The notes beneath the pieces were generated by a model. That model had not been told where the DNA came from and did not search any database. It saw only the letters and a program-made list of their open reading frames with translations. Positions 18,036 to 23,739 of a stretch of 23,739 nucleotides of DNA are shown one piece after another. The DNA comes from a virus. The DNA is taken from positions 1 to 23,739 of the IMG/VR virus record IMGVR_UViG_3300023236_000032. One strand, 5' to 3'. The position numbers and the translations under genes are program-made. Positions within the stretch are counted from its first letter, which is position 1. Every line of letters starts with the position of its first letter.

Positions 18036-18218
18036 ATGAAAAGAATTATCTATCAAACAAACGAAGGTGGCGTTGCCATCATTGTCCCAGCCGACTGCGG
18101 CTTAACCATCGAAGAGATTGCAGCCAAAGACGTACCCGCCGGCAAGCCCTACAGCATCGTGGACGTTTCCGACATTCCAACCGACCGCACATTTCGCAAC
18201 GCATGGGAGATGACATGA
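18036..18218 (+). CDS. Small fibre-associated protein
   Basis: 60 residues with AAGGA as ribosome binding site. The sequence MKRIIYQTNEGGVAIIVPAD and KDVPAGKPYSIVDVSDIPTD RTFRNAWEM is a pattern I associate with small genes next to tail-fibre genes in tailed phages; function unknown, possibly fibre assembly. It forms a coupled pair (ATGA) with the next gene. Confidence 0.75.
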   Translation: MKRIIYQTNEGGVAIIVPADCGLTIEEIAAKDVPAGKPYSIVDVSDIPTDRTFRNAWEMT

Positions 18219-18445
18219 TTACAGTGAATATAGGTAAAGCCAAAGACATTGCACATGATGTTCGCCGCGCTGCTCGTTTAGTTGAGTTTGCTCCACTGGA
18301 CATTAAAGCAACCATTCCCTCAGAAGCCGTAGCAGCCGAAGAAGCTCGTGCTGTTGTCCGCACCAAGTATGACGATATGCAAACAGCCATCAATGCGGCA
18401 ACTACCGCAGACGCAATTAAGGCGGCAATGCCACAAGGGGTTTAA
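18215..18445 (+). CDS. Small fibre-associated protein, partner gene
   Basis: 76 residues from ATG 18215, chosen over ATG 18203 because it forms an ATGA overlap with the preceding stop and has GGGAGA five bases upstream. The start ITVNIGKAKDIAHDVRRAARL and the later EEARAVVRTKYDDMQTAINAA are helical and recur in phage genes beside tail fibres. A chaperone or accessory role is possible but unproven. Confidence 0.75.
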   Translation: MITVNIGKAKDIAHDVRRAARLVEFAPLDIKATIPSEAVAAEEARAVVRTKYDDMQTAINAATTADAIKAAMPQGV

Positions 18446-18483
18446 TGAGTAAAGTAGAAGTAAATGCTAAGTATCCTCAATGA
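18445..18483 (+). CDS. 12-codon bridging ORF (possible coupling peptide)
   Basis: ATG 18445 shares its A with the TAA of the preceding gene and the frame reads MSKVEVNAKYPQ to TGA 18481-18483. That stop overlaps the ATG (18480) of the downstream membrane-protein gene, which has no recognisable ribosome binding site. The tiny frame may exist to carry ribosomes across 34 bases. Translation is not proven. Confidence 0.4.
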   Translation: MSKVEVNAKYPQ

Positions 18484-18830
18484 ACTATCTTACCCTCTTA
18501 GGTTATTACATTGCAGCTAGCGCCTTTGGCTTCTACGTTCTTTGGATTTTCTACCTTGCTGTAATGAACTTAAAGAGGGTTAAGGATGCTGGCTTGATGA
18601 CCAAGACCGCCATGGTGTTCGGTTACCCGATTTTGCTTGCGGGGTGGCTGGTTGACTTTATAATCAACGCAATGGTTTTAACGTTGTTATTGCTTGAGTG
18701 GCCTAAAGAAATGACGGTAACTGCTCGTTTAAAGCGTCACAACGCAACAAGCACTGGCTGGCGCAAAGCTGTAGCGGTGTGGTTTGAACCTTTGTTAGAC
18801 CCTTACGACCCCAGTGGAGACCATATTTAA
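18480..18830 (+). CDS. Phage membrane protein with two hydrophobic regions
   Basis: 116 residues. Hydrophobic segments lie at about 4-29 and 43-72 (the latter long enough for one tilted or two short helices), separated by a basic loop (NLKRVKDAG). The C-terminal part is cytoplasm-like and basic: TARLKRHNATSTGWRKAV, then LLDPYDPSGDH. I know similar proteins from other tailed phages, unnamed, often near lysis or late genes. Possible roles include holin/antiholin function or superinfection exclusion; neither is shown. It lacks its own ribosome binding site and is probably coupled to the 12-codon ORF. Confidence 0.78.
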   Translation: MNYLTLLGYYIAASAFGFYVLWIFYLAVMNLKRVKDAGLMTKTAMVFGYPILLAGWLVDFIINAMVLTLLLLEWPKEMTVTARLKRHNATSTGWRKAVAVWFEPLLDPYDPSGDHI

Positions 18831-19031
18831 ATGGAAAACATCGACCCAGTGCAATACGGCCGTTTGATTGCTCAAGTTGAGAACTTGACAACTAAAGTGG
18901 AGTCGATGGACACAGACATTAAAGAGCTGCTTGCCCTGGCAAACAAAGGGCGCGGTGGGTTTTGGATGGGCATGACAATCGCGAGCATGTTGGGTGGCGC
19001 CCTTGCCTGGGCTTTAGGTCACTTCAGGTAA
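18831..19031 (+). CDS. Small coiled-coil/one-TM protein, XhlA- or holin-like
   Basis: 66 residues. Residues 8-38 are a heptad-like helix (RLIAQVENLTTKVESMDTDIKELL), residues 44-63 a Gly-containing membrane segment, with a short basic end. The arrangement (N-terminal coiled coil, C-terminal TM) resembles XhlA-type holin-associated proteins. It starts immediately after the preceding stop and its TAA overlaps the next ATG. A role in membrane permeabilisation is possible, but the main holin appears to be the gene at 22607. Confidence 0.72.
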   Translation: MENIDPVQYGRLIAQVENLTTKVESMDTDIKELLALANKGRGGFWMGMTIASMLGGALAWALGHFR

Positions 19032-19474
19032 TGCTGGCTGAATTAGCGGTTGCTAATGCATGCTTTGCGGCGGTAAAAACAGCGCTAAAAAATGGTTCTG
19101 AACTAGCCGATTGCGCATCAAAGCTGGGGGAGTATTTTGGCCTCAAGGCTGAGATTGCAAAAAAGGCATCAACCAAGGGCAGTGACTCAGATGCTTTTTG
19201 GGCAATGGAATCCTTGCGTGAAGCTGAAGCTGAGTTAAAAGAGGTGCTTATCTACACAGGACGCCCAGGACTATACGATGATTTTTTGCAATATCAGTCT
19301 TTAAAAAAACGCGAGCGTGAGCAAGAGGTTCGCAACAAAGCCTTAGCTATCTACAAGCGCAGGCAGTTGGTCTGGTCGTGGGTAAATGGCTTACTGATTG
19401 GCATATCAGTTTTAACAGGGTTTATTGCTGTAGTTGGCATAGTTTGGATTATTGCAAAGCGTGGAACTTTTTAA
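19031..19474 (+). CDS. C-tail-anchored phage membrane protein
   Basis: 147 residues from ATG 19031 (TAATG overlap); an upstream in-frame ATG at 18962 lies inside the preceding gene. The N-terminal 115 residues are helical (LAVANACFAAVKTALKNG, SDAFWAMESLREAEAELKE, IYTGRPGLYDDFLQYQSL), followed by Arg/Lys-rich sequence and a single TM helix at about 118-141 ending AKRGTF. Proteins of this layout are widespread in tailed phages and uncharacterised; the GRPGLYDDF core is the recognisable part. It is third in a run of membrane-protein genes. Confidence 0.8.
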   Translation: MLAELAVANACFAAVKTALKNGSELADCASKLGEYFGLKAEIAKKASTKGSDSDAFWAMESLREAEAELKEVLIYTGRPGLYDDFLQYQSLKKREREQEVRNKALAIYKRRQLVWSWVNGLLIGISVLTGFIAVVGIVWIIAKRGTF

Positions 19475-19501
19475 CGACGTGTAAATTTATTAGGTGCAAA
19501 A

Positions 19502-19852
19502 ATGACAGCTGTAACACACAACTTCACTATTGAGCAAGGCGCAACATTAGCCAAAGTTTTTGTCTGGAAAGACAGCTCAGGAGCGGTGATAAACTTGACT
19601 GGCTATAGCGCAAGGCTTCAGAGTAGGCCAACTGCTAGAAGCGCGACCATATATCTTGAAGCGAACACCTCAAACGGTGCTATCGTTATCGACGCTGTAA
19701 ATGGAAAAATTACTTTGAGCTTAACCTCTCATGAAACATCGGCACTTGATTGGCTTTCAGGCGTTTACGACCTTGAGCTAGAAGACGCCAGCGGCACTGT
19801 TACCAGGTTGGCCCAAGGCTCAATCACAATAAGCAAAGAGGTTACAAGATGA
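19502..19852 (+). CDS. Beta-sandwich adhesin-module protein, baseplate upper/Ig-like
   Basis: 116 residues. The pattern [29 protein letters not shown] and [20 protein letters not shown] is a widespread phage module found just before large fibre genes and related to the N-terminal domain of phage baseplate upper proteins. It probably links the collagen-like fibre to the virion. It ends at an ATGA overlap with the fibre gene, so both are made together. Confidence 0.8.
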
Positions 19853-21879
19853 CAGACCAAGTGACAATTATTGAGACGGTTGAAAACCAATTCGTTGAAA
19901 TTTTAACCGCTGGAGTTACTGGGCAGCAAGGTGTCCAAGGTATTCAGGGTTTAACCGGCGCCCAAGGCATCCAAGGCATTCAAGGTGAGACTGGCATCCA
20001 AGGTGAGACAGGATTGACAGGTGACACAGGAACCCAAGGTATTCAGGGTGAGACAGGTGCAACGGGGGCAGACTCAACAGTTGCTGGGCCTCAAGGTGAT
20101 ACAGGAGCCCAGGGGGTTGCAGGTGCTCAGGGCATCCAAGGTGAGACAGGATTGACTGGCGCCCAAGGTGCCCAAGGTGAGACAGGTGCTCAGGGCATCC
20201 AAGGTGAGACAGGCATTCAGGGCGTCCAAGGTGATGCAGGAACCCAAGGGGCTACAGGTGCTCAGGGCATCCAAGGTATTCAAGGTATTCAAGGTATTCA
20301 AGGTGAGACGGGTGAGGCTGGTGCTCAGGGCATCCAAGGTTTAACAGGAACCCAAGGTATTCAGGGTGAGACAGGTGAGACAGGTGCCCAAGGCATCCAA
20401 GGTATTCAAGGCTTAACTGGTGCAACGGGGGCAGACTCAACTGTTGCTGGGCCTCAAGGTGATACAGGTGCTACAGGTGCTACTGGGGTTGGACTAACTT
20501 CGCAGTTAGTGGGATTTACAGCCACTCTTGGCGCAACGCCTAAAACTTTGACTGTTGAAGCGGACGCAAATGTGGCTGGCACAAACACAGGCGACCAAAC
20601 GGCAGCAAGCCTTGGCCTTGGCAACGTTGACAACACTTCTGATGCTAACAAACCCGTTTCTACTGCGCAAGCAAACGCAGACACAGCAGTGCAAAACGCA
20701 GCAGCTACTGACGCTACAAACAAAGCCAATGCTCGCCAAGAAACCTTAGTCAGCGGCACAAACATCAAGACCATAAACGGTGGCACACTTTTAGGCTCTG
20801 GTAACGTTGTAATTTCAAGTGGTACAGCCCTTGAGTTGTATGCTGAAAACCCTGTCACTCCAACTACACCTTCTGCTACTGGTACTAATGCTGTTGCTAT
20901 AGGTAGTGAAAGTATTTCAAGTGGGTTGGACAGTATTGCTATCGGCCGAAACGTAAATGCCGCAAATATCAGAGCGATAGTTCTAGGCGGGTACTCTCAA
21001 GCATACGGGATTAGTTCAATTGCATTAGGGTTTTCAGCCACCGTTAACCCCGGCAGCACTGAGTCAAATGCGTTGGGCAGTAGAGCGCAAGTTGGCTCTA
21101 ATGTGACTGGTGCAACAGCTATTGCCAAATCCTACGCCTCTGGCACAAACAGCTTCGCAGCAGCTATAGCAAACAACGCATCAGCCTATGGTGCTACTGG
21201 GGCTAACTCTGTGGCTATTGGGGAGCTTTCTAAGGCTACGGGAAATGGGTCGCAAGCAATCGGGCATGGGGCAACAGCTTCAGGAATCTCGGCAACGTCT
21301 TTAGGGGGTTCTAGTGGTTCAACAGCCTCTGGTACAAACAGTTTTGCTTGGGGTAGCTTTGCGACAGCCTCTACAACCTACGCAGTGGCTTTTGGTCCGT
21401 TCTCAAGCTCCACTCACGAAAGCGCAGTTTCTCTCGGCAACGGGGCAACCTCCAACTCTGTTGGGAAACTGACATTTGCAAACGGAGACCCTGACCATCA
21501 AACGGGCTTTAATCTTTTACGTCAGATAACGGCTGATGCAACCCCTGAGCAAATGACCACGACAAACGGTACTGCTGCCACCACTAACGGTATCAACTTA
21601 CAGAGTAACACAGCTTTTGCGTTCTCTGGTACTGTTGTGGGAAAACAGGCATCAACAGCTAACTGTGCAGCGTGGAAGGTGGAGGGTTTAATCGTCAACA
21701 ATAGTGGTACAGTTACTCTGGTTAATTCTGCCGTGACAGTCCTTGATAACACCCCATCTTGGGGCATGGCACTGACGGCGGACGACACAAATAACTGCTT
21801 GGCTATTACGGTCACAGGCGAGGCTGCAACTACCATAAGCTGGACCGCATCTATCACCACCAGCGAAGCTGAAGATTAA
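19849..21879 (+). CDS. Collagen-like/YadA-like chimeric tail fibre
   Basis: 676 residues. After a 21-residue head, residues about 22-215 are Gly-X-Y collagen-like repeats, mostly GIQGxTG and GAQG, with two copies of the non-repetitive [15 protein letters not shown]. Next come shaft motifs ([38 protein letters not shown]), then about residues 345-535 with repeated (S/A)xAIG and SGxxSxA units like YadA/trimeric-autotransporter head beta-rolls. The C-terminal 140 residues ([45 protein letters not shown]) form a domain I recognise from other phage fibres. A trimeric rod with a receptor-binding tip is inferred. Confidence 0.88.
19918..20490 (+). repeat. Collagen-coding minisatellite tract
   Basis: Imperfect tandem 9-, 18- and 21-base units such as GGTATTCAGGGTGAGACAGGT repeat through 19918-20490 and keep the Gly-X-Y frame. 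A run of four ATTCAAGGT-type units at about 20268-20304 is nearly exact. Such tracts expand and contract in steps of three codons. Confidence 0.85.
20056..20468 (+). repeat. 50-base direct repeat within the collagen tract
   Basis: Bases 20056-20105 and 20419-20468 (GGTGCAACGGGGGCAGACTC...) match except for one base in the threonine codon (ACA/ACT) apart from the edges. The spacing of 363 bases is 121 codons, so the frame is kept. Recombination between the copies would delete 121 codons of collagen rod. Confidence 0.75.
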
Positions 21880-21897
21880 CACTTAAAGGAACCCAAA

Positions 21898-22197
21898 ATG
21901 GCTATTGAAAAAGACTTATCTAACTCACAGTATGGCGTGCCATTCACAGGCGCTTACTTTCGCATTGTTACAGCGGCTATATCTCGTACTCGTGATGCAG
22001 ACAGCCGACACACTGTTATGATTGATGTAGCTGGTTATGCGACTGCACCAACTGATGAAGACACTCGTGACATTGAGTTTCGCCGCTACCACTGTTCAAT
22101 AGCAGAAGTTGAAGCCCAGACAGGCAATGACTTTCTTTCTAAATGTTACGAATGGGTCATGACGCAGGATGATATGGCTGGCTCGGTAGGCGTCTAA
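21898..22197 (+). CDS. Conserved small phage protein after the fibre gene
   Basis: 99 residues with a good ribosome binding site (AAAGGA). It is soluble and beta-rich at the start (YGVPFTGAYFRIVTAAISRTRD, HTVMIDVAGYAT) and helical at the end (IAEVEAQTGNDFLSKCYEWVM). I recognise the pattern from genes next to phage fibre modules; function unknown, perhaps a small structural or assembly protein. Confidence 0.75.
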   Translation: MAIEKDLSNSQYGVPFTGAYFRIVTAAISRTRDADSRHTVMIDVAGYATAPTDEDTRDIEFRRYHCSIAEVEAQTGNDFLSKCYEWVMTQDDMAGSVGV

Positions 22198-22240
22198 GTA
22201 GAAATAAGTTAGCGTGTAAGCATAACTAGCCATTAAAGGC

Positions 22241-22447
22241 GTGCTGACGGTTATTTTAGTGTTTCTGCTAGGGGTAACAGGCATTGGCGCTATTGCTTTG
22301 CTTGTATGGATTGTAGTGACAAAAGGGGACTTTTTAATGGCCTACCAACTTGATGAACACGACCAAACCTCCAGCATTTTCTTTGACGTTGCTAGGAACG
22401 GGTACAAAAACTGTAAGCAACACTTCTTCAGTTGGGATGGTGATTGA
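22241..22447 (+). CDS. Small membrane ORF, possibly remnant plus a 36-aa gene
   Basis: From GTG 22241 the frame reads 68 residues: a TM helix (about 3-26), then DFLMAYQLDEHDQTSSIFFDVARNGYKNCKQHFF. An internal ATG at 22337 has a good ribosome binding site (AAAGGGGA, 7 bases away) and would make a soluble 36-residue protein. GTG 22241 has an AAAGG too close to it. The TM part resembles the end of the C-tail-anchored protein at 19031 (TGFIAVVGIVWIIAKRGTF versus TGIGAIALLVWIVVTKGDF), including a shared ACTTTTTAA at the DNA level, suggesting a decayed partial copy fused to a small gene. Confidence 0.5.
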   Translation: MLTVILVFLLGVTGIGAIALLVWIVVTKGDFLMAYQLDEHDQTSSIFFDVARNGYKNCKQHFFSWDGD

Positions 22448-22454
22448 GGGCGTA

Positions 22455-22484
22455 TTGACTTGGGATGAATAATCTAATTATTAT
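22455..22484 (+). promoter_or_regulatory. Sigma-70-like promoter with overlapping dyad, upstream of lysis genes
   Basis: TTGACT (22455-22460) is the -35 and TATTAT (22479-22484) the -10, 18 bases apart, each one base from consensus. Transcription would start near 22491 and read the micro-ORF, holin and endolysin. A perfect inverted repeat AATAAT-CTA-ATTATT (22468-22482) overlaps the -10 and could be an operator. The 97-base gap 22448-22544 holds nothing else I can recognise. Confidence 0.6.
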
Positions 22485-22544
22485 GGTTGCTAAATTCTTT
22501 ACTTTAACCTTATCTTTTTATACTTAAACGAAAGGGCGATTCTA

Positions 22545-22610
22545 ATGACTAGACCACTACCAGTTCGCAATATGCGAAAAGCCAAAAACAAAAAGCCACC
22601 AAAAAAATGA
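22545..22610 (+). CDS. 21-aa basic micro-ORF coupled to the holin
   Basis: ATG 22545 preceded by AAGGG; the product MTRPLPVRNMRKAKNKKPPKK is very basic with no membrane segment. Its TGA (22608-22610) overlaps the holin ATG (22607) as ATGA, so translation of the holin probably depends on it. It may be a true small protein or a coupling leader that sets holin level. Confidence 0.55.
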   Translation: MTRPLPVRNMRKAKNKKPPKK

Positions 22611-23017
22611 TTGCACTAGCTGGACTACTTGAAATTGGCGGCAAGCTGATTGACAAACTTATCCCAGACCCAACGGCCAAGGCTAATGCGCAGCTGGAAC
22701 TAGCAGCACTTGTGCAAAGCGGTGAGCTGGCAAAGATGGCCAATGAAACCGACCTCTACAAAACGGAGCAAGGAAACCTCACAGAGCGCCTGAAATCCGA
22801 TATGGGTAGTGACAGTTGGCTGTCAAAGAATATACGCCCTATGACCCTCCTAGCCATCCTAGTGGGCTATTTCACGTTCGCCATGATGTCAGCATTCGGT
22901 CTTGACGCAAATTCAGCCTACATTGAGCTTCTCGGCCAGTGGGGTATGCTAATCATGTCGTTTTATTTTGGCGGCCGAACGCTTGAGAAAATCATTGACA
23001 TGAAAGCAAAGAAATAA
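22607..23017 (+). CDS. Holin, 3TM family
   Basis: 136 residues. A hydrophobic N-terminal helix (about 1-19), a soluble acidic helical middle (KANAQLELAALVQSGELA), then SDSWLSKNIRPMTLLAILVGYFTF with TM about 79-97, a short loop, TM about 105-122 and the conserved SFYFGGRTLEKI end. This is the gene-transfer-agent/phage 3TM-type holin pattern. It would open the inner membrane to let the M15 endolysin reach peptidoglycan. It lies two genes before the endolysin and downstream of a candidate promoter. Confidence 0.88.
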   Translation: MIALAGLLEIGGKLIDKLIPDPTAKANAQLELAALVQSGELAKMANETDLYKTEQGNLTERLKSDMGSDSWLSKNIRPMTLLAILVGYFTFAMMSAFGLDANSAYIELLGQWGMLIMSFYFGGRTLEKIIDMKAKK

Positions 23018-23030
23018 TCTGGAGTACGTT

Positions 23031-23225
23031 ATGTCTTTTTGGTTGCCTGTTGTTTTTATTTGTCTCAGTGGCGGCAATTGCGGGTTTGCCAACGGCAGCT
23101 TAACAGCGACAGCCAGCCAGTGCGAGGCGACGAATTACGCGGTCAGACAAAAGCTGGCCACAGACTTAGATGTTGCAAGTTTTAAACTTGTCTGCATAGA
23201 AATAAAGAAAGACGATTTTATATGA
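23031..23225 (+). CDS. Small cysteine-containing protein in the lysis cassette
   Basis: 64 residues. The N-terminus MSFWLPVVFICLSGGNCGFAN is hydrophobic and may be a signal or anchor; cysteines are at 11, 17, 31 and 55. LSGGNC is not a proper lipobox. Similar short proteins beginning FWLPVVF occur in phage lysis regions without assigned function. A role as a periplasmic lysis accessory is inferred from its place between holin and endolysin. GGAG precedes ATG, and its TGA overlaps the endolysin start. Confidence 0.65.
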   Translation: MSFWLPVVFICLSGGNCGFANGSLTATASQCEATNYAVRQKLATDLDVASFKLVCIEIKKDDFI

Positions 23226-23677
23226 AGCTGTCCGCAAACTTCTCGCTGAACGAACTTACCAAGTCTGAGGCGGCAACTCGCAACGGCATATTTAACACCC
23301 CATCTGCGCTTGTCATTGAAAAGTTGCAAGCATTGACTGACAACATCCTGCAACCCTTGCGCGACAAGTTCGGCCCAGTCATTGTTACAAGCGGCTACCG
23401 TTCGCCGGAGGTAAATAAAGCGATTGGTGGCAGCACAAACTCGCATCACTGCTTTGGGTACGCAGCCGATTTTGAGGCGCTTGGGATGGATAACCGCGAG
23501 TTAGCTATATACATCCGAGACTCGCTAACTTATACGCAACTGATACTTGAGTTCTACAATGGCGACCCAGAGTCAGGATGGGTTCACTGTTCTTATGACG
23601 AGGCAGACCTAAAGTGCCAGACTCTTACTGCGCGGCGGGTTAACGGGCGCACTCAATACTCCAACGGGATTCTTTGA
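23222..23677 (+). CDS. Endolysin, M15 family D-Ala-D-Ala-type peptidase
   Basis: 151 residues. After an N-terminal FSLNELTKSEAATRNG, the M15 zinc-peptidase motifs are TSGYRSPEVNKAIGG (56-70), SHHCFGYAADF (zinc ligands H76 and D83) and GWVHCSYD (H122). All expected ligands are present. Members cleave peptide cross-links of peptidoglycan. No signal peptide is seen, so it needs the holin. It starts at an ATGA overlap. No recognisable i-/o-spanin pair is in the window; one may lie beyond the right edge. Confidence 0.9.
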   Translation: MKLSANFSLNELTKSEAATRNGIFNTPSALVIEKLQALTDNILQPLRDKFGPVIVTSGYRSPEVNKAIGGSTNSHHCFGYAADFEALGMDNRELAIYIRDSLTYTQLILEFYNGDPESGWVHCSYDEADLKCQTLTARRVNGRTQYSNGIL

Positions 23678-23739
23678 CCGACCCGCAACGACCACTTCTT
23701 TTGTTGAAAAGAGGTGACCGTTGGCGCACACGTAACGCC
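23674..23739 (+). CDS. Possible TTG-started ORF running off the right edge
   Basis: TTG 23674 overlaps the endolysin TGA by two bases (TTGA) and the frame stays open for 22 codons to the window end, reading TDPQRPLLLLKRGDRWRTRNA. The endolysin and its neighbours use tight overlaps, which makes a coupled gene believable, but the piece is too short for identification and it contains the hairpin below. Confidence 0.35.
   Translation, partial: MTDPQRPLLLLKRGDRWRTRNA
23686..23723 (+). repeat. Strong two-part hairpin at the right edge
   Basis: CACTTCTTTT (23693-23702), loop GTTG, AAAAGAGGTG (23707-23716) makes a 10-bp stem with one G-T pair; outside a 2x2 internal loop, CAACG (23686-23690) pairs with CGTTG (23719-23723). 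No T run follows. It could be an RNA structure, a protein-binding dyad or part of the phage end region. Confidence 0.6.

Follow-up and report, generated by a model that had tools for sequence, protein, structure and literature searches.

A recurrent pair of small membrane-protein genes found upstream of phage lysis genes that probably helps to time host lysis

Three small membrane-protein genes joined end to end beside the fibre genes of a tailed phage raise the question of what such proteins do, and of whether their place among the fibres reflects their role. The window (the whole stretch of DNA analysed, 23,739 nt) is a 23.7 kb linear piece of a tailed phage from IMG/VR, and the three genes, here named A, B and C, lie in it as follows.

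Gene A, 18480-18830, + strand: 116 aa; transmembrane (TM) hairpin and amphipathic C-terminal helices
Gene B, 18831-19031, + strand: 66 aa; predicted N-terminal cytoplasmic coiled coil and a single C-terminal TM segment
Gene C, 19031-19474, + strand: 147 aa; predicted helical cytoplasmic domain and a C-terminal TM anchor

B starts at the base directly 3' of the TAA of A, and at the B/C junction the ATG of C and the TAA of B have one base in common (TAATG); the coordinates and the abutting or one-base-overlap junctions are as the initial annotation gave them. When compared with locus L026, A, B and C showed dN/dS values of 0.15, 0.05 and 0.15, respectively, and since these are low and each gene has many homologues, the three are real genes under purifying selection rather than chance ORFs. 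A promoter and terminator scan returned sites no commoner than in shuffled sequence. Upstream lies an overlapping pair of small genes, T1 and T2 (18036-18445), with no assigned function; about 36 fetched loci have the two together behind fibre genes.

The predicted architectures also fit those first proposed, namely two hydrophobic regions for A, a coiled coil with one TM segment for B and a C-terminal tail anchor for C. AlphaFold2 modelled A as a two-helix membrane hairpin (helices 3-36 and 42-71, pLDDT 88) followed by the amphipathic helices. In an alignment of 21 sequences, invariant W, Y, D and N residues fell in or near the membrane part, the polar D59 and N63 being located in the second TM helix, and the tail 'DPFDPSG-H' was conserved. 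In B, residues 9-38 presented a clean heptad pattern, hydrophobic at 8 of 9 a/d positions in the best register, followed by one C-terminal TM segment with near-invariant residues and a conserved, glycine-zipper-like GGFWxGM; the pattern GxxxGxxx[AGS]xxx[GAS] was present in 28 of 33 B clusters. C was modelled as three helices and then a long helix, 80-144, entering the membrane (pLDDT 74). Lysine and arginine were richer before than after the TM segment, as called by a simple hydropathy window, in 32 of 33 sequences of B and in all 37 of C, and because the positive charge is higher on the N-terminal side, B and C are both predicted to be N-in/C-out, C with one TM segment.

Database comparisons of A, B and C with Pfam, NCBIfam and PADLOC gave nothing usable, and PHROGs returned families of unknown function only. 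A was without match in Pfam, NCBIfam and plasmids, Foldseek found nothing for it in the PDB, and its sole PHROG match was phrog_8793 (E=0.005). Sequence comparison with solved structures yielded generic coiled-coil or helical matches and nothing more specific, the best for B being HP1531 (E=4e-4), on the coil. The C of the window had no match in Pfam or NCBIfam and its fold had none in the PDB (Foldseek, best E 1.5), while 13 BFVD matches at probability 0.99-1 were all uncharacterised or unnamed; phrog_32327, of unknown function, matched 29 of 41 members of the C family, the window copy not among them. Relatives were nevertheless plentiful in viral contigs: single-query scans gave 58 for A and at least 596 contig stretches for B, and for C gave 30 with the window query and 404, 538 and 50 with other C queries (up to 80 loci were taken per scan, and overlaps between scans are not subtracted). 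B was almost absent from bacteria, being found at 5 loci among 84,980 bacterial species genomes.

Relatives were clustered at 70% identity to determine which of the genes travel together. B lay just downstream of A in 1 of 18 A clusters and C in 2 of 18, and A also occurred apart from lysis genes, for instance with terminase genes on one side and portal-side genes on the other. C, by comparison, lay just downstream of B in 7 of 16 B clusters, and B itself occupied the slot before C in 17 of 35 C clusters. A-B-C triples were found at 33 fetched loci (overlapping fetches, hence fewer contigs), all of the window lineage or L060. A conserved three-gene device was therefore rejected; of the co-occurrence that the initial annotation proposed to check, the part concerning B and C held while A proved scattered, and the recurrent unit is B-C, not A-B-C. 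Recent mobility via bacterial genomes was likewise rejected, given the rarity of B among bacterial species and the lack of a plasmid match for A, and the A-B-C DNA had no match in E. coli genomes.

The slot before C is itself conserved in kind. A single-TM ORF of 45-120 aa was located directly upstream of C in 24 of 35 C clusters, against 3 of 83 for structural genes (nine families pooled, same test). Besides B, the occupants were the types c48 and c45, a roseophage type with an N-terminal TM segment and the RLKRLE type. Profile comparison of B with two other slot types indicated no relation (probabilities 1.6% and 0.5%, from thin alignments), suggesting that the slot is usually filled from families with no detectable mutual homology.

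To place the pair in its genomic context, lysis-family genes were scored within 3 kb. They were found downstream of C in 28 of 36 clusters and upstream in 2 of 33, downstream of B in 12 of 17 and upstream in 0 of 16, and downstream of A in 8 of 16 and upstream in 0 of 16; the lysis profiles behind these counts were grown from loci of the same dataset, the holin-like families c12, c32, c37 and c73 were named mainly from place and topology, which is partly circular, and Fisher values are descriptive, as 70% clusters share ancestry and are not independent. The counts left out minus-strand matches, C domains below 110 aa, B below 50 and A below 85, L009, and six whole or near-whole phage records (L178-L183). 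For C, 28 of 36 is a slight undercount, since two of the eight misses have lysis genes after all: the window, whose cassette lies 3.1 kb away, and CRP-227, whose holin was missed by the lysis profiles and recognised by PHROGs (phrog_3427). In 15 of the 28 clusters the first lysis gene can start between -15 and +30 nt from the stop of C. These data favour the auxiliary lysis-timing device that was one of the roles first suggested.

The lysis genes downstream were of unrelated types (M15, GH108, GH24, GH19, CHAP-like amidase, GTA holin and holin-like TM families), indicating that the link is with lysis function and not with one cassette. It is strong but not universal. Downstream of C in 252 unclustered loci that extend at least 2.5 kb beyond it, lysis genes were found in 163, tail genes in 40, scaffold or capsid genes in 36 and others in 13. 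When nine contigs were searched, two long ones of the tail class had C and the M15 gene separated by about 26 kb, and one of the capsid class had C and the lysozyme separated by about 15 kb. Since the lysis genes of P1, as described in PMC9025707, are unlinked too, distant lysis genes in these two classes are not decisive.

If the pair normally precedes lysis genes, its place among fibres in the window calls for an explanation, for which the DNA following C is needed.

Fibre block, 19475-22300, + strand: about 2.8 kb between C and the lysis cassette; absent from L026
U, 19502-19852, + strand: phrog_1084 / phrog_3304
F2, 19849-21879, + strand: collagen and YadA-head repeats
V1, 21898-22197, + strand: last gene of the fibre block
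C relic, 22220-22336, + strand: TM-coding 3' part of a second copy of C
V2 relic, 22337-22447, + strand: truncated gene of V2 type, complete in L051 (238 aa)
Second C relic, 22524-22545, + strand: terminal 22 nt of a further C gene
Mini-ORF, 22545-22610, + strand: 21 codons, strongly basic, conserved
Holin, 22607-23017, + strand: GTA_holin_3TM, PF11351 (E=9e-10); phrog_3427 (E=5e-21)
R, 23031-23225, + strand: small protein with a signal-like N terminus, between holin and endolysin
Endolysin, 23222-23677, + strand: M15 peptidase, PF08291 (E=2e-20); phrog_894 (E=2e-41)

L026 aligned to window positions 18459-19474 and then to 22301-23739 with nothing between, U, F2 and V1 being missing; its DNA equivalent to the first stretch stops at the stop codon of C and that equivalent to the second begins inside the final 36 nt of C. 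The same absence is seen in L053, which was fetched from the same contig and overlaps L026. The right junction of the block falls inside the C relic, whose region (22220-22336) is 81.6% identical to L051 4040-4215, comprising a C 3' end and the start of V2, and an ORF at 22241-22447 reads the TM tail of C in frame into the V2 relic. This chimera, 22220-22447, is a fossil left by modules having been exchanged repeatedly where C ends. A C end of the type at 22524-22545 directly precedes the holin in L021, L023 and L029. The ATG of the mini-ORF overlaps the stop of this relic (TAATG) and its TGA overlaps the ATG of the holin (ATGA). L021, L022, L023, L025 and L029 encode the mini-ORF too, with no more than two differences, and in them C, mini-ORF and holin are chained through the same two overlaps; the mini-ORF could be a leader peptide or a setter of holin translation. 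R, which had homologues in 43 fetched loci and no family match, is a candidate new lysis accessory protein.

The absence of the block from L026, the C-tail relics and the mini-ORF before the holin indicate that the 3' end of C is where a fibre module came in, by insertion or by recombination. The position away from the lysis cassette is thus true of the window but is not the usual state, as C lies directly or almost directly before the holin in the relatives L015, L021, L023, L025, L026 and L029. A system matched to the receptor used by the fibres, as also suggested at first, finds no support here: the adjoining block is an insertion that relatives lack, and a fibre or chaperone family was found upstream of C in only 12 of 32 clusters, as judged with a limited set of fibre profiles.

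The named phages present the same arrangement. B was found in six records representing five phages, with an endolysin within about 1.3 kb downstream in all five, and in Venkman, DSL-LC05 and P26218 it lies just before holin and endolysin. With the C of CRP-403 as query, C was found in 13 records, or 15 with two Manatee Spring phages, and its neighbours were read in 11 of the 15 (CRP-113, CRP-235, CRP-3 and CRP-738 left out). Lysis genes follow C in CRP-118, CRP-403, CRP-227, CRP-361, CRP-114, CRP-406, MW202879 and MW202710, while CRP-171 has a small 2-TM ORF and a lipoprotein-like ORF after it, and in Mosig and CRP-212 no recognisable lysis-family gene was found beside it. In the T7-like roseophages the pair sits between fibre/chaperone and terminase genes. 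In CRP-118 and CRP-403 a CHAP-like amidase and an Rz-like gene come next, and in CRP-227, CRP-361 and CRP-114 a GTA holin does (profile match shown for CRP-227). In CRP-406 the pair lies within a muramidase to lysozyme-Rz-like cassette. The membrane proteins of the CRP-118 late operon are a B-like protein, C, the amidase (with a C-terminal TM segment) and the Rz-like protein; no other annotated holin candidate was found in that operon, and an unannotated 65-codon TM ORF lies elsewhere, at 39562. CRP-403 encodes a separate small 2-TM protein, gp51. The excerpted text of the T7-like roseophage paper reports several lysis genes and does not contain the word 'holin'.

Several deposited annotations at these loci merit comment. 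CRP-118 gp37 is truncated as deposited; in the full ORF (31609-31881 in L179, 90 codons), which shares 1 nt with C, the N-terminal TM segment is recovered. In CRP-403, an unannotated lipoprotein-like ORF (L178, 32508-32708) overlaps the Rz-like gene and is likely an o-spanin (Rz1) missed in the deposited record. The C homologue of CRP-406 (L397, 2995-3465) is annotated as 'peptidase' and the B homologues of three records as 'heat shock factor binding protein', both of which look like mislabels from chance resemblance.

We then compared the pair with known lysis systems. XhlA has a coiled-coil/one-TM architecture, and B likewise has a coiled coil and one C-terminal TM segment; its place before holin and endolysin agrees with that of XhlA in Venkman, DSL-LC05 and P26218, and in the window if the inserted block is discounted. 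Membership of the XhlA family was rejected, however, as neither B nor the B of L128 matched the profile (PF10779) at E<=1, and the best score, that of CRP-212 gp43, was 17.8 bits against a cut-off of 34.7. In the lysis operon of the Bacillus prophage PBSX, all three of the xhlA, xhlB and xlyA genes are described as required for vesicle formation (PMC5589764). That operon resembles the present one in encoding a small membrane protein, with which B shares architecture and place, together with holin and endolysin, and differs in its Gram-positive host and in that no C-like partner figures in the description given in PMC5589764.

Also comparable are LysF1a and LysF1b of the mycobacteriophages Girr and NormanBulbieJr, two unlike membrane proteins jointly needed for efficient lysis, whose genes overlap by ATGA and one of which is a single-TM protein with a long charged cytoplasmic helix (PMC13056207). 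According to the same account, deletion showed that a single-TM lysis protein of mycobacteriophages works beside a two-TM one (PMC13056207). LysF1b has an N-terminal TM segment and is N-out/C-in, unlike the C-terminal segments and predicted N-in/C-out topology of B and C, and the host is an actinobacterium. P1 LydC and LydD are described as accessory holins, encoded in separate operons, whose loss delays lysis (PMC9025707); like the proposed B-C role, they act beyond a main holin, although LydA, LydC and LydD have two TM helices and B and C one each with an extended cytoplasmic part. Several distinct TM genes, including some for one-TM proteins, lie beside the endolysin in Gordonia phages as reported in PMC9671378, although these one-TM proteins are there predicted to be N-out/C-in and without coiled coils. 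The type III holins (T4 T and the PhiKZ 'type IIIb' holin) have a single TM segment, and that of PhiKZ, which a second-hand account gives as N-in/C-out and with a globular domain in the cytoplasm (PMC13056207), has the topology predicted for C; C differs in being mostly accompanied by another holin-like gene.

No sequence or fold match of C to a known holin was found in Pfam, NCBIfam, PDB or BFVD, and A, B and C did not match GTA_holin_3TM (PF11351). A spanin (Rz) was rejected, as B and C have a C-terminal TM segment with N-side positive charge and not an N-terminal TM segment and periplasmic coil; the roseophages carry separate Rz-like genes. Structural homology was rejected as well, Foldseek finding nothing in the PDB for A or C and BFVD only uncharacterised phage proteins. 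Because they fail the profile tests of every named family tried, B and C are reported as new families, which may work like XhlA, LydC/LydD and LysF1b by analogy without being members. Searches of abstracts and passages of the literature retrieved nothing on A, B or C.

Taken together, these results make it slightly more probable than an even chance that A, B and C form the upstream end of a late lysis module in which B and C are accessory lysis proteins, as co-holin or antiholin. This is the best supported of the readings considered, and the interpretation first offered is partly upheld. No Pfam, NCBIfam or PDB match for A, B or C speaks for a lysis function. The B-C pair is very common and probably helps to time host lysis. 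B and C would form an inner-membrane pair with helical or coiled-coil domains in the cytoplasm and C-terminal TM helices in the membrane, A being an optional third member with a TM hairpin. Made together, they would associate with each other and with the holin, via the cytoplasmic coiled coils and, in the membrane, the glycine-zipper TM helix of B, and would thereby set the moment of holin triggering. The step from a place in the lysis operon to the setting of holin timing is one that we infer by analogy with XhlA, P1 LydC/LydD and mycobacteriophage LysF1b.

A real holin beside B-C in many phages indicates that the pair is not simply the holin, but in some roseophages without a better candidate B-C may be the holin itself. 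Another version, that C by itself is the holin, of a new kind built from a globular domain in the cytoplasm and a TM helix at the C terminus, with B as its obligatory oligomerising partner, seems unlikely: the resemblance of its topology to that of PhiKZ type IIIb in the second-hand description (PMC13056207), the glycine zipper of B and CRP-118, whose late-operon membrane proteins besides the TM-bearing amidase and Rz-like spanin are B' and C, speak for it, while most cassettes have a GTA holin or another holin-like gene after C, and CRP-403 gp51 and the CRP-118 65-codon ORF could be holins. We consider it similarly doubtful that B-C is a new two-protein lysis machine, common in aquatic phages, with C a tail-anchored holin or holin gate and the single-TM coiled-coil partner in the B slot obligatory but swappable. 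In such a machine the cytoplasmic helical domain of C would read a timing signal, partners unrelated to one another but built alike (B, c48, c45, the roseophage N-terminal-TM type and RLKRLE) would be interchangeable just upstream of C, and selection would act on architecture, not sequence.

A role of B and C as membrane proteins linked to the virion or its assembly (DNA ejection, or tail assembly at the membrane), their genes belonging to the end of the structural operon, we regard as improbable. In many phages the pair comes right after fibre, chaperone or ejection-protein genes, and tail or capsid genes are next in 76 of the 252 loci; against this, non-homologous single-TM partners and switching downstream lysis genes are unexpected of a structural protein, and 28 of 36 C clusters have lysis genes downstream. 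Even less can be said for a late membrane device for superinfection exclusion or against competitors, carried as a moron next to the fibre genes. Exclusion roles in general suit small membrane proteins that are encoded near fibres, and the tail and capsid classes have B-C beside fibre or chaperone genes, far from lysis genes. Exclusion genes are often prophage-borne, however, whereas B is nearly missing from bacterial genomes, and the downstream association with lysis genes is strong. PADLOC gave no family for the window proteins P0001-P0003 at E<=0.1 and a single weak, irrelevant match, to a distant A relative, so that exclusion, the remaining role first suggested, finds no specific support. 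Finally, that the neighbourhood is a dumping ground of small late-operon genes, B and C having no common function, is hard to credit despite the scatter of A and the free recombination of module boundaries here, in view of the low dN/dS, the near-invariant TM residues of B, the more than 500 relatives that B and C each have, and a small TM gene before C in 24 of 35 clusters against 3 of 83.

The reading as accessory lysis proteins bears on phage biology in several ways. Relatives of B and C number at least 596 and at least 538 contig stretches, yet are 'hypothetical' or mislabelled in the annotated records examined, and the window illustrates that insertion of a fibre module where C ends can give a lysis operon the look of an adhesin island. 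Should they prove to be lysis proteins, B and C fill a gap in phages such as CRP-118, which are without an annotated holin, and give a test of the division of labour among several membrane lysis proteins. Exchange of unrelated coiled-coil/TM proteins within a single slot would clearly exemplify selection acting on architecture.
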